Assembly (NCBI RefSeq): GCF_001990485.1
Contig: NZ_LBFC01000018.1
Coordinates: 62,001-126,000, forward strand
Direction: 5' to 3'
Source: Thermosipho affectus
GTDB taxonomy: Bacteria > Thermotogota > Thermotogae > Thermotogales > Fervidobacteriaceae
Length of the DNA: 64,000 bases
The notes under the pieces are model-generated. The model saw nothing but the letters and a program-made list of their open reading frames with translations. It did no database searches and was not told the origin of the DNA. This document shows positions 4,473 to 10,256 of this stretch, piece after piece; within the stretch, counting starts at the first letter, position 1, and each line of letters opens with the position of its first letter. The translations under genes and the position numbers were made by a program.

Positions 4473-4491
4473 ATATCCAGGAGGGGTAGAT

Positions 4492-4870: not shown

Positions 4871-6586
4871 GTGCATTACATGGAAGAATACAAAAGGTGG
4901 CTTGAAAGTCCGTATATTGATGAGGAAACAAAAAAAGAACTTTATGAGATAAAAGACAACGAGGAGGAGATAAAAGAGAGGTTTTTCAAGGATTTAGAAT
5001 TTGGAACAGCAGGTTTAAGGGGAAAAATAGGATCAGGAACTAATAGAATGAATAAATACGTTATTGCAAGAGCCACACAAGGTCTTGCAGACTTTATAAA
5101 CTCTAAAGGCGAAGATAGGGCAAAAAGGGGAGTTGTCATTGCCTACGATGTAAGACATTATTCGAAAGAATTTGCAAGGGAAGCAGCAAGTGTACTTGCT
5201 GGAAACGGAATTAAAGTGTACATTTTTGATGATATAAGACCTACACCAGAACTTTCTTTTGCAGTTAGATATTTAAATGCAACTGCGGGTATAGTTATCA
5301 CCGCAAGTCACAATCCTCCAGAATATAATGGTTACAAAGTGTATTGGGATAAAGGTTCACAAATTTTAGATGATGTTGCAATACCAGTTCAAAACAATAT
5401 AAAGGCATTAAAAAATTTTGGAATGATAAAGAGAATACCTTTTGAAGAAGGATTAAACAAATTGATCCATATAATCGGAAAAGAAGTGGATGAAGAATAC
5501 TACAAAAAAGTGTTATCACTTGCTCTAAACGAAGATATAGATAAAGATATAAAAATAGTTTACACACCACTAAACGGTACAGGTAATATACCGGTGCGTC
5601 ATGTATTAAAAGAAAGAGGTTTCAAAAATGTTTTTGTGGTGAAAGAACAAGAATTGCCTGATCCAGATTTTACGACAGTTGGGTATCCAAATCCAGAAGA
5701 TATAAAGGCGTTTGAGTTGGCACTTAAGCTTGCAAGGGAAAAGGATGCAGATTTAATAATTGCAACTGATCCAGATTGTGATAGACTTGCCGTTATGGTA
5801 AAGTACAATGATCAATACGTGGCATTAAATGGAAACCAAACGGGTGCTATTTTGATTCAATATCTTTTATCTCAAAGAAAAGAAAAGCAACTTCTTTCGG
5901 ATAAAAGCGTTATAATAAAATCCATTGTTACCGGTAATTTGGGAAAGTTAATTGCAAAAGAGTACAACGTAGAAACATTTGAAACACTTACAGGATTTAA
6001 AAATATATGTGGACTTGAAAATGAATTGGAAAAAGAGGGGTATCAATTTGAATTTGGGTATGAAGAAAGTATAGGTTTTGTCACGGGAAATTTTGTAAGG
6101 GATAAAGATGGTGTAATATCTGCAATGATGCTTTCAGAAGCAGCGGGATATTACAAAAAATTTGGAAGAACATTGGTAGATGTCTTAAACGAGTTATACG
6201 AAAAGTACGGTTATTACCTGGAGAATAATTTTTCGCTTATATACGAAGGTATAGAAGGTATGGAAAAAATTTCAAAAATTATGGAATTTTACAGAAAGAG
6301 TTTTCCAAAAGAAATTGGAAATTTAAAAGTCAAAAGTTATATAGATTATTTAGATGGGAATATTTACGATATAGATGGAAATGTAATTGGAAAGGTAGAG
6401 AGAATACCATCTTCAAATGTGTTGAGATTTTTCTTTGATGATGGTAGTTGGTATGCAATTAGGCCTTCTGGTACGGAGCCCAAACTTAAAGTGTATATTT
6501 ACTCATTTGCAAGGACACGTGATGAATCTGAAAAAAAGTTAGAATTGATTGAATCTGAATTTAGGAAAATAATTGAAAAAATATGA
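4871..6586 (+). CDS. Phosphoglucomutase/phosphomannomutase
   Basis: Alpha-D-phosphohexomutase interconverting hexose 1- and 6-phosphates, 571 aa. Four family motifs are present: the phosphoserine loop TASHNPPEYNG (Ser146), the metal loop DPDCDR (302-307), the sugar loop GYEESIG, and the phosphate loop RPSGTEPK near the C-terminus. The length and FGTAGLRGKIG match the PgcA-type enzymes. GTG at 4871 was chosen since AGGAGGTGAG ends just upstream; a later ATG (4880) is possible. Hexose-phosphate specificity cannot be read from sequence. A terminator follows. Confidence 0.93.
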   Translation: MHYMEEYKRWLESPYIDEETKKELYEIKDNEEEIKERFFKDLEFGTAGLRGKIGSGTNRMNKYVIARATQGLADFINSKGEDRAKRGVVIAYDVRHYSKEFAREAASVLAGNGIKVYIFDDIRPTPELSFAVRYLNATAGIVITASHNPPEYNGYKVYWDKGSQILDDVAIPVQNNIKALKNFGMIKRIPFEEGLNKLIHIIGKEVDEEYYKKVLSLALNEDIDKDIKIVYTPLNGTGNIPVRHVLKERGFKNVFVVKEQELPDPDFTTVGYPNPEDIKAFELALKLAREKDADLIIATDPDCDRLAVMVKYNDQYVALNGNQTGAILIQYLLSQRKEKQLLSDKSVIIKSIVTGNLGKLIAKEYNVETFETLTGFKNICGLENELEKEGYQFEFGYEESIGFVTGNFVRDKDGVISAMMLSEAAGYYKKFGRTLVDVLNELYEKYGYYLENNFSLIYEGIEGMEKISKIMEFYRKSFPKEIGNLKVKSYIDYLDGNIYDIDGNVIGKVERIPSSNVLRFFFDDGSWYAIRPSGTEPKLKVYIYSFARTRDESEKKLELIESEFRKIIEKI

Positions 6587-6612
6587 AGCCTGGGGTATTC
6601 CCAGGCTTTTAT
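6587..6612 (+). terminator. Terminator after phosphohexomutase
   Basis: AGCCTGGG (6587-6594), loop GTATT, CCCAGGCT (6600-6607), then a T-rich run. It begins directly after the stop codon and only 22 bases before the next gene's ribosome site, so read-through may supply the Crp/Fnr gene. Confidence 0.88.
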
Positions 6613-6628: not shown

Positions 6629-7297
6629 ATGCATCCGCTAATTGAAACGTTTTCAAAGATAGAAGTGTTTAAAAAATTAAAAATATCACAGATAGAAAGA
6701 TTAGTAAAAAATAGGGAGATCATTTTTAGAAGATATGAAAGAGGTGAATTAATAAAGGGAAGAGGAGAAAAAATAAATGAAGTAATGGTTTTAATGAGTG
6801 GTAAGGTACGTGGTGAGATGAACGATTTTAACGGGAAAAATCTCGTGGTTGAAGAAATAAAAGCCCCCAATTTTTTGGCTGTTAATATTTCTTTTTCCAG
6901 AGAAGCAATATTACCTGTGGATATAGTTTCCGAGGAAAGGTGTGAAGTTGCGTATTTGAAAAAGGAAAAAATATTTGAGCTTGCAAGTGAAAATATAGAT
7001 TTTTTAAAAGCTTTGGTGGAATTTTTGGGATCAAAGTTTTATTTTATATCTCAAAAACTTTGGTTTATAACTTTAAATAGTCTAAAGGAAAAAATATTGA
7101 TATATCTTGCATCAAAGTACAGTGGTGGTGAGGTTGTGGTTTTGGATAAGTCAATAGAACAGCTTTCACAGCTTTTTGGTTCAACAAGACCTGCACTTTC
7201 TAGGGCATTTTCGTTGCTTGAAAGTGAAGGAATAATTAGAAAAGAGGGAAATAAAATATACATATTGGATAAAGATGTAATAGATTTTTACGTGTAA
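6629..7297 (+). CDS. Crp/Fnr-family regulator, likely HcpR-like
   Basis: 222-aa regulator with an N-terminal cyclic-nucleotide-binding-type beta-roll (about 1-115), a dimer helix, and a C-terminal winged helix whose recognition segment reads SQLFGSTRPALSRAF (about 180-195). No Fnr-type Cys cluster is present (a single Cys), so no Fe-S sensor is expected. The next genes, a hemerythrin-PAS protein and hybrid cluster protein, are the typical targets of HcpR regulators of anaerobes, which respond to NO. ATG 6629 follows GAGGTGAT. No promoter of its own was found. Its stop codon overlaps the palindromic operator at 7293. Confidence 0.85.
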   Translation: MHPLIETFSKIEVFKKLKISQIERLVKNREIIFRRYERGELIKGRGEKINEVMVLMSGKVRGEMNDFNGKNLVVEEIKAPNFLAVNISFSREAILPVDIVSEERCEVAYLKKEKIFELASENIDFLKALVEFLGSKFYFISQKLWFITLNSLKEKILIYLASKYSGGEVVVLDKSIEQLSQLFGSTRPALSRAFSLLESEGIIRKEGNKIYILDKDVIDFYV

Positions 7298-7308
7298 CAT
7301 ATGTTACA
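7293..7308. promoter_or_regulatory. Perfect 16-bp palindrome, probable HcpR/Crp-type operator
   Basis: TGTAACATATGTTACA is an exact inverted repeat with half-sites typical of Crp/Fnr-family proteins. Its centre is 41.5 bases before the start expected from the -10 at 7330-7335, the position used by class II activators. It therefore probably serves for activation of the DUF438 and hcp genes by the upstream regulator. Confidence 0.75.
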
Positions 7309-7335
7309 GACAAAATGGTATAGGATTTGTATAAT
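7307..7335 (+). promoter_or_regulatory. Promoter of the DUF438-hcp operon
   Basis: TATAAT at 7330-7335 with a poor -35 (CAGACA at 7307-7312, 17-base spacer) that overlaps the palindrome. A weak -35 fits an activator-dependent promoter. Confidence 0.65.
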
Positions 7336-7357
7336 CAAGTTGAGAGGAGTTGAAAAT

Positions 7358-8551
7358 ATGAGTGAGTTATTCAATAAAAAGGAGTATTTAAAAAATTTAA
7401 TTTTGAGAGTATCTCAAAGAGATGATGAAAAATTAAAAAGAGAACTAAAAGAAACTATAAAGGAATTATCCGCAGAAGAGATTGCAAAAGTTGAACAAGA
7501 ATTAATGGAAGAAGAAAGATTGTCAATTGAGAAGATTCAATCAGTCTGCGATGTACACCTGGAACTTTTTAAAGAGTACATTGATTCTGAAAAGATAGAT
7601 GTGGAAGAGTGGCATCCCATTTATATATTAATGAAAGAACATGAATATATAATCAAAAGTCTAGAAGGGCTAAAGGAATTATCTGATAAATTACTTAAAA
7701 AGAGTGATGTTCCATCTGCTTTGCCAATACTTTTAAATCTTCAAAGGTATATAGATGATTTAAACGAAGCGGAAAAATATTTTCAAAAGGAAGAAAACGT
7801 TTTATTCCCGTATATAGAAAAACATGGTATTACAAAACCCCCTGCGGTGATGTGGAAAGAGCATGATCAAGTAAGACTTTTAAGAAAAGAACTTATAGGT
7901 ATTAAAGAAAAAAGGGATTTGGAGTTAGCAAAGAATAAATTGTATGAAATTTCAATGGGATTACTTGAATTATTTTTAAACCATGTGCACAAAGAACATT
8001 CTGTTTTGTTTCCAACTGCATTGAAGTTGATAAGTGATGAGGAGTGGTTAGATATAAGGGAACAATTTGATGAAATAGGATATATAGGGATAACACCTGT
8101 GAGTGTGGAAAAAAGGGTAAAGATTGAGGAAAGAGTTTACGATGAAAATATAAAACTTCCAAGTGGAGAGTTTACATTAGAGGAATTAAAATATGTTTTA
8201 AATACATTACCGGTAGATATAACATTTGTTGATAAAAATGATGAAGTTAAATATTTTAGCGAGACGAAAGATAGGGTATTTGTAAGAAGTAGGGCAATTA
8301 TTGGAAGAAAAGTACAAAACTGTCATCCGGAAAAGAGTATAGATATTGTTAATAAAATATTGGAAGATTTTAAGTCTGGAAAAAGAGATCATGCAGATTT
8401 TTGGCTAAAGCTTGGAGAAAGGTATGTATACATTAGATATTTTGCTGTGCGCAATGAAAAAGGAGAATATTTAGGAACCCTTGAGGTTACACAGGATATA
8501 AAGCCTATTCAGGAGATTTCGGGAGAAAAGAGAATTTACGATGATAAATGA
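7358..8551 (+). CDS. DUF438-hemerythrin-PAS sensor-like protein
   Basis: 397 aa in three parts: DUF438 (about 1-85), a hemerythrin/HHE domain (about 85-235; HPIYILMKEHE, KEENVLFPYIEKHG, WKEHDQ and HVHKEHSVLFP supply the His/Glu iron ligands), and a PAS-like domain (about 260-385; RSRAIIGRKVQNCHPEKS). The di-iron centre probably senses or binds O2 or NO, as in RIC/YtfE relatives that work with hybrid cluster protein. No output domain is seen. ATG at 7358 was chosen because the promoter lies at 7307-7335 and GAGAGGAG precedes it. Confidence 0.88.
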   Translation: MSELFNKKEYLKNLILRVSQRDDEKLKRELKETIKELSAEEIAKVEQELMEEERLSIEKIQSVCDVHLELFKEYIDSEKIDVEEWHPIYILMKEHEYIIKSLEGLKELSDKLLKKSDVPSALPILLNLQRYIDDLNEAEKYFQKEENVLFPYIEKHGITKPPAVMWKEHDQVRLLRKELIGIKEKRDLELAKNKLYEISMGLLELFLNHVHKEHSVLFPTALKLISDEEWLDIREQFDEIGYIGITPVSVEKRVKIEERVYDENIKLPSGEFTLEELKYVLNTLPVDITFVDKNDEVKYFSETKDRVFVRSRAIIGRKVQNCHPEKSIDIVNKILEDFKSGKRDHADFWLKLGERYVYIRYFAVRNEKGEYLGTLEVTQDIKPIQEISGEKRIYDDK

Positions 8552-8563
8552 GGAGGTGTTGGA

Positions 8564-10222
8564 ATGTTTTGTTATCAATGTTCAGAGGCATCAAAAGGTG
8601 TAGGTTGTACAACCGTTGGGGTGTGTGGTAAAACGCCAGAAGTAGCACATCTTCAAGATTTAATTATTTGGCTTGTAAAGGGAATATCTTATTGGTCTTT
8701 AAAAGCAAAAGAGTACGGTGTAAAGGATGAAGAAGTTAATTTGTTTGTTGCGGAAATGTTGTTTGCAACTATTACAAATGTGAATTTTTCGGTTGAAAGA
8801 ATGGTTGAATTTATTGAGAGGGCATTTGAATTAAGGGATAGAATAAAGCATAAATTTTTAGACGTATATGCACAAAAAGAGGGAAAACCATTTGACGAAA
8901 AGGTTCCAGAAGCTGCAGAATGGTATAAAAAAGGCGGGGCTGATCTATACGAATTAAAGGGAATGGAAGTAGGAGTGCTTTCGGATAAAGATGAGGATAT
9001 TAGATCTCTAAAACAACTGTTGATTTACGGGTTAAAGGGTATAGCTGCATATACAGATCATGCGTATATTTTGAAGCACACAAATGATGATATTTTATAC
9101 TTTATTCAAAGAGGACTTGTTGAAACATTGAGAGATGATATAACAGCAGATGAATTAGTATCCTTGGTACTAGAAGCTGGAAAATTTGCGGTAGATGCAA
9201 TGGCATTACTTGATAAGGCAAATACCACAGAATTTGGAAATCCAGAGATTACAGAAGTGTATACGGGGACTTACAATACACCTGCGATATTGGTTAGTGG
9301 TCACGACTTGTTGGATCTTGAAGAATTGTTAAAACAGACAGAAGGAACGGGAATAATGGTTTATACGCACGGAGAAATGCTTCCGGCACATGCCTATCCA
9401 AAGTTAAAAAAATACAAACACCTTGCGGGAAACTTTGGAAGTGCATGGTGGAAACAAACACAGGAATTTGAAGAATTTGGTGGAGCAATATTGATGACTA
9501 CAAATTGTTTAGTCCCACCAAAAGGTTCTTACAAAGACAGGGTCTTTACAACTGGACTTGTAGGATTTGATAAGCTAACACATATTCCAAATAGAACAGA
9601 TGGAAAACCAAAGGATTTTTCACCTGTGATTAAGAAGGCTCTCGAGTTAGGACCAATTCCTGAGAGAAAAGGTAAAAAGCTTGTGATTGGTTTTGCACAT
9701 AACCAGGTCTTAAAACTTGCAGATAAAGTAATTGACGCGGTAAAATCAGGAGCAATTAAAAAGTTTGTAGTTATGGGTGGTTGTGACGGAAGACATCCTG
9801 GAAGGGAATATTACACGGAGTTTGCAAAAAAACTTCCAAAAGATACGGTTATTTTAACTGCAGGTTGTGCAAAGTATAGGTATAACCACCTTGATTTGGG
9901 TGATATAGACGGTATTCCAAGAATTTTGGATGCAGGTCAATGTAACGATTCTTATTCGCTTGCCGTGATTGCTTTAAAATTAAAAGAAGCCCTAGGGTTA
10001 AACGATATAAACGAATTACCAATTGCGTATAATATAGCGTGGTACGAACAAAAAGCAGTTGCAGTGTTATTGGCGCTATTGTACTTGGGAATAAAAGGAA
10101 TAAGATTGGGGCCAGTTTTACCGGCATTTGTTTCTGAAAATGTGTTAAAAGTGTTAGTTGAGAAATTCAATATTGCCCCTATCACAACAGTTGAAGAAGA
10201 TTTAAAAACATTACTCGCATAA
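8564..10222 (+). CDS. hcp: Hybrid cluster protein (hydroxylamine/NO reductase)
   Basis: 552 aa. The N-terminal Cys spacing C3-x2-C6-x8-C15-x5-C21 binds the cubane Fe-S cluster. Downstream [23 protein letters not shown] and [11 protein letters not shown] carry ligands of the hybrid Fe-S-O cluster. Family members reduce hydroxylamine in vitro and NO in vivo, protecting anaerobes from nitrosative stress. Full length. ATG has GAGGAGGTG in front. It forms an operon with the DUF438-hemerythrin gene 12 bases upstream and ends in a strong terminator. Confidence 0.96.
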
Positions 10223-10227
10223 ATAAA

Positions 10228-10256
10228 ATCCCCATCCAATCGGATGGGGATTTTTT
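10228..10256 (+). terminator. Terminator after hcp
   Basis: A 10-bp stem, ATCCCCATCC (10228-10237) and GGATGGGGAT (10242-10251), with a four-base loop and a T run to 10256. Confidence 0.93.

Follow-up and report, generated by a model that had tools for sequence, protein, structure and literature searches.

What does a palindrome at the very end of a Crp/Fnr-family gene do when the genes that follow it belong to nitrosative-stress defence? The question is raised by a 64-kb stretch of the genome of Thermosipho affectus (hereafter the window; the source genome, from the phylum Thermotogota, comprises 1.77 Mb in 27 contigs), in which a first-pass annotation had marked such a palindrome as the binding site of an HcpR-like activator. 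Comparative evidence and a prediction published in 2005 back its identification of the regulator, the operator and the target operon, and it is almost certain from the sequences that HcpR acts through the palindrome to turn on two genes for detoxification under nitric-oxide stress. The genes and terminators of the locus are as follows.

6585–6609, + strand: intrinsic terminator between a phosphoglucomutase-type gene and hcpR, with an 11-pair stem and a T-rich tail; also readable on the − strand
6629–7297, + strand: hcpR, a Crp/Fnr-family regulator of 222 aa, starting at an ATG preceded, 4 bases upstream, by GAGGTGAT (translation might instead begin at a GTG 9 bases earlier)
7358–8551, + strand: DUF438-hemerythrin-PAS gene, first in the controlled operon (Pfam DUF438, Hemerythrin and PAS_10)
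8564–10222, + strand: hcp, hybrid-cluster protein/hydroxylamine reductase (NCBIfam PRK05290, 832 bits against a cut-off of 367)
10225–10254, + strand: operon-end terminator, with a 13-pair stem and a T-rich tail

The genes hcpR, the hemerythrin gene and hcp follow one another in the same direction, and the Pfam and NCBIfam matches bear out the gene identities given earlier. Homologues of the hemerythrin-gene product align from residue 1 at 7358, and an ATG inside the operator, at 7301, is not a likely start. Upstream, only about 20 bases separate the end of the strong terminator (6585–6609) from the first codon of hcpR, and the sole nearby promoter-like site (6545–6573) precedes that terminator. 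As no operator lies upstream of hcpR in the window, direct autoregulation is not expected here; it may occur in the many genomes in which hcpR and the operon diverge from one site. A terminator-type hairpin is present between hcpR and the operator in a congener (G080) and in several Marinitoga but is absent in the window, so that read-through from hcpR could provide a basal level of the hemerythrin protein and Hcp. Across the phylum, Hcp itself occurs in two forms, one of full length and one shorter by approximately 100 residues near family-model positions 83–188 (loci L101–L107, L110–L113, L117–L121 and others), and HcpR sites are found with both.

The regulator shows the Crp/Fnr architecture (Pfam HTH_Crp_2, PF13545, 8e-10; cNMP_binding, PF00027, 8e-9), and its recognition helix, FGSTRPALSR, has Arg at CRP position 180, Pro (P188) at 181 and Arg at 185. 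The pattern R-P-x-x-S-R is invariant in 59 Thermotogota homologues picked by similarity alone. Rodionov et al. (2005; PMC1274295) tied a proline at CRP position 181 to the motif GTAACnnnnGTTAC, predicted such a site for Thermotogales hcp within their HcpR2 group, and stated the absence of an Fe–S cysteine cluster to be a trait of the whole HcpR group. The window protein contains a single cysteine (C105) and no FNR-type Fe–S cysteine motif, in agreement with the first-pass annotation. Crp/Fnr architecture, GTAACnnnnGTTAC upstream of hcp, Pro181, adjacency to hcp and the lack of an Fe–S cysteine motif are thus the HcpR2 traits found in the window; the arrangement hcpR-hemerythrin-hcp recurs in relatives. 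In a tree built without an FNR, DNR or CRP outgroup, the protein groups with HcpR-like proteins of the Thermotogota, Bacteroidota and Aminicenantes. By sequence, the nearest solved structures are 1o5l (Crp-family; the closest) and 9day (P. gingivalis HcpR), the latter also being the first Foldseek match of an AlphaFold model built from 27 sequences (pLDDT 88.8). VIA-align ranks cAMP-type CRPs above 9day, an order that is probably due to a differently posed DNA-binding domain and says nothing about the ligand.

The elements between hcpR and the hemerythrin gene are the following.

7293–7308, no strand: HcpR operator TGTAACATATGTTACA, a perfect 16-bp palindrome centred at 7300.5
7294–7307: operator core GTAACATATGTTAC, the inner 14-mer of TGTAACATATGTTACA
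7307–7312, + strand: partial −35 element CAGACA, its first base being the last base of the operator core, with a 17-bp spacer to the −10
7330–7335, + strand: −10 element TATAAT, 22 bp past the operator core
7342, + strand: predicted transcription start, a G placed from aligned promoters, giving a 16-base leader
7342–7349, + strand: Shine–Dalgarno-like GAGAGGAG, seen in the sequence

The palindrome lies, as first described, in the stop region of the regulator gene, with the hcpR stop codon TAA (7295–7297) inside it, and its inner 14-mer agrees in full with GTAACnnnnGTTAC, the consensus published for HcpR2. Rarity of the palindrome was rejected as evidence, since the window holds six perfect palindromes of 16 bp. 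The motif GTAACNNNNGTTAC has an expected count of 0.06 for the window and is found there once, and the operator is the sole perfect copy of TGTAACATATGTTACA within the genome. Among near matches with two mismatches, considered as candidates for further HcpR sites, those inspected do not resemble promoters; at least two fall inside queA- and pyrG-like genes (named from a reading of translations), and within this genome a −10 at the correct distance stands beside the window site only.

The main evidence is instead the conservation of sequence, position and gene context across genomes. A search for the pattern GTAACNNNNGTTAC-N18..25-TATAMT over 103 genomes of the phylum returned 41 matches in 36 genomes, compared with four for the reversed-pattern control. 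For a separate set of loci, protein similarity (to the regulator or to Hcp) was the sole criterion and the pattern was not used; in most of the Thermotogota loci so chosen, hcpR, the hemerythrin gene or hcp is flanked by a perfect site. Merging contexts that were at least 75% identical left 41 perfect sites that count as independent, all in loci gathered without reference to the pattern; a −10 hexamer lies at 22 bp in 30 of these and at 23 bp in seven, while other distances average approximately 1.2. The p-values of these comparisons ignore kinship and are descriptive, and even after merging the related genomes are not fully independent samples. Beyond the phylum, a GTDB scan yielded 80 loci, mostly from the Bacteroidota, Spirochaetota, Fusobacteriota, Aminicenantes and others (a few are Thermotogota); 39 hold hcp, of which 35 have a perfect site, and the −10 distance again peaks at 22 bp (19 versus about three). 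In these 80 loci the R-P code is true by construction of the search pattern and was left out as evidence.

Sites of the HcpR type, with a −10 at 21–23 bp, also occur in other Thermotogota before genes for NapH-like 4Fe-4S membrane proteins, small cupin-like proteins and a ferredoxin-containing protein (names from translations), at L157, L158 and L159 (sites 2521, 2540 and 1682), L160 (1969), and L050 and L060 (1501), and these are likely extensions of the regulon. In L147 (G053), two perfect HcpR sites fall in one operon, at 4483 and 5739, before the hemerythrin gene and before hcp.

The position of the operator relative to the promoter follows from the predicted start site. In 58 promoters aligned on the −10, a YR start step is conserved, 72% having T at −1 and 75% having G at +1, which in the window corresponds to T7341–G7342, seven bases past the −10 box; transcription is therefore predicted to start at 7342, with the operator centre at −41.5. 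This class II position is the one proposed in the first-pass annotation, and the fixed spacing to the −10 and the conserved start step argue for a class II activator promoter. The same annotation called the −35 poor: CAGACA matches TTGACA at four of six positions with ideal 17-bp spacing and so is weak but not absent, and its GA core is conserved in relatives. An nGA core after the operator core (GTTACnGA) is found on the promoter side of 35 of the 41 independent sites versus the other side of only five, and its retention on the promoter side only marks it as a feature of the promoter that stands outside the operator's symmetry. A TT at the start of the −35 is precluded by the operator's final C and by the base that follows, which is seldom T. 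From this we infer that the incomplete −35 has been retained for contact with sigma, with activation dependent on the regulator. Promoters of Thermotoga maritima are sigma-70-like with spacers near 17 bp (PMC3636130), which the spacer here fits; a search of the main text of that paper for the start site of T. maritima hcp found no mention of the gene.

Which signal sets the regulator was left open at first reading, and is less open than stated there. In P. gingivalis, HcpR uses haem and NO to activate hcp; full activation requires Met68, which is putatively a ligand of haem that NO displaces (PMC12750200). Met64 of the window protein (RGEMND) aligns with this residue (EIRAEMVGPS), making the haem/NO mode the leading hypothesis for the window regulator. 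Methionine occupies the position in 88 of 137 homologues, with Phe, Ile or His in the others: it is found across the window's clade, with one Ile exception, and is replaced by His or Tyr in the Thermotoga-type clade and by Phe in the Fervidobacterium-family clade. For the Phe clade the haem/NO mode may not hold. Proteins of this clade (L110, L111, L112, L113, L114, L121, L124, L125, L126, L127 and L129) also have conserved cysteines near residues 11, 47 and 155, and may couple the same DNA code to another sensing chemistry.

Taken together, the window site is very probably an HcpR2-type operator serving class II activation of the hemerythrin–hcp operon, with haem/NO as the most likely signal. 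With the operator, its match to the recognition helix, its fixed position and the operon supported by sequence, the switch would work as follows. In its active state, the regulator dimer would bind each GTAAC half-site through the RP-type recognition helix, centred at −41.5, and would contact RNA polymerase as a class II activator, so that a sigma-70-type holoenzyme would be recruited to the consensus −10 and to the weak CAGACA fused to the operator edge. The resulting transcript would begin near G7342, cover the DUF438-hemerythrin-PAS gene and hcp, and end at the terminator (10225–10254). The active state would most likely be set by NO, or by nitrite-derived NO, acting on haem, for which Met64 would serve as ligand, as proposed for Met68. 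Several points count against this account: P. gingivalis HcpR, the biochemical model, is only approximately 26% identical to the window protein and has Gln at position 181, the Met68 position does not hold Met throughout the group, the partial −35 could give basal transcription without an activator, and the genomes compared are related.

An operator that overlaps a partial −35 with an ideal spacer, a consensus −10 and a conserved nGA core would also suit a repressor, with HcpR bound over the −35 and blocking polymerase until NO or redox stress frees the operator, and in Deferribacter a predicted HcpR1 site sits where a repressor would be expected to bind (PMC5701242). Repression is nonetheless improbable, as a spacing fixed at 22 (or 23) bp over many genera reflects the need of an activator and not of a repressor, and the −35 lacks its TT and is kept so by the operator. 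Expression of hcp, moreover, falls in a C. difficile hcpR mutant (PMC12915319), which together with the activating P. gingivalis HcpR (PMC12750200) supports activation. A more serious doubt concerns the cue, which could be redox or another ligand in the cNMP-type pocket, with activation otherwise as proposed. The residue at the Met68 position differs by clade (Met, His, Phe, Ile), and haem data were found for no Thermotogota HcpR; such a cue is still less likely than haem and NO, given that the window's own clade keeps Met, bar the one Ile, and that Hcp and a hemerythrin-domain protein are targets as in nitrosative-stress regulons (PMC1274295).

The site might alternatively belong to another Crp/Fnr protein, for example the paralogue at C18:38421-39014, and a second protein of the family is indeed encoded in the same genome outside the window (L155:1422-2015). 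This is highly improbable: the paralogue was ruled out as the binder by its recognition helix, GSVREVVSK, which lacks the R-P code, whereas the site is conserved beside R-P regulators. That the palindrome arose by chance and has no regulatory role is a prospect close to negligible; perfect 16-bp palindromes are unremarkable in the window, but the sequence, position and gene context of this one are conserved.

The operon that HcpR is proposed to activate has likely been transferred between lineages. Marinitoga sequences enclose the window protein and its counterpart from the congener G080 in the HcpR tree (support values 99/97 and 97/88), and this nesting suggests Marinitoga as the donor. The regulator of a second congener, G079, belongs instead to the family-typical Phe clade. 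The Hcp tree joins the window and G080 with Marinitoga (97), as sister groups.

The locus is a well-supported, ordinary case of a system known as a prediction since 2005. A literature search found nothing on T. maritima HcpR beyond 2005, on Thermosipho together with hcp, or on DUF438-hemerythrin-PAS proteins, and the details not found described are the presence of the hemerythrin gene, the −35 core fused to the operator, the location of the stop codon within that operator and the probable operon transfer. We also put forward, tentatively and with somewhat less than even confidence, a broader proposal: that Thermotogota HcpR2 promoters follow a class II design of their own, with a conserved −35 core joined to the operator edge (GTTACnGA, 17 bp, TATAMT) so that sigma contact with the −35 is combined with activation; that the DNA code stayed invariant while the sensor domain diverged from clade to clade, with Met, His or Phe as the residue at the haem-ligand position; and that a whole Met-type operon from a Marinitoga-like donor replaced the native Phe-type regulator in the window's lineage. 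The 2005 motif prediction is hereby developed into a precise promoter model for the phylum, with the operator at −41.5 and, in the window, a predicted start at G7342, and the hemerythrin gene joins the regulon. Sensor domains whose putative haem ligand is Met, His or Phe all serve one DNA code, which offers a natural comparison for asking whether haem is general to HcpR.

Known systems share parts of this arrangement. PDB entry 1O5L, which we take to be a T. maritima Crp-family protein, probably TM1171, has the same R-P helix as the window regulator, but has His at the Met68 position, belongs to a different HcpR clade and is encoded divergently from hcp; at Thermotoga-type loci (G090–G096), GTAACAATTGTTAC precedes hcp with a −10 at 23 bp. 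P. gingivalis HcpR (9DAY; PMC12750200) resembles the window protein in the Met64/Met68 alignment, in the presence of the flap GK (residues 72–75) and in having hcp as its target, and differs in carrying Gln for Pro at CRP position 181, with a correspondingly different DNA motif, and in that its haem and NO response was shown directly, while that of the window protein is predicted from sequence. With the HcpR2 regulon of the Thermotogales, Clostridia and Bacteroides (PMC1274295), the window has in common the operator GTAACnnnnGTTAC, the R-P helix code, adjacency to hcp and the lack of an FNR-type cysteine cluster. In contrast to that regulon, for which the 2005 paper gave only hcp in the Thermotogales, the window operon starts with the DUF438-hemerythrin-PAS gene, hcpR is co-directional with its target, and the operator holds the hcpR stop codon. 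Finally, as in the class II promoters of E. coli CRP and FNR, the activator site is centred at −41.5 and overlaps the −35 region, but the window type keeps a partial −35 with a conserved nGA core.
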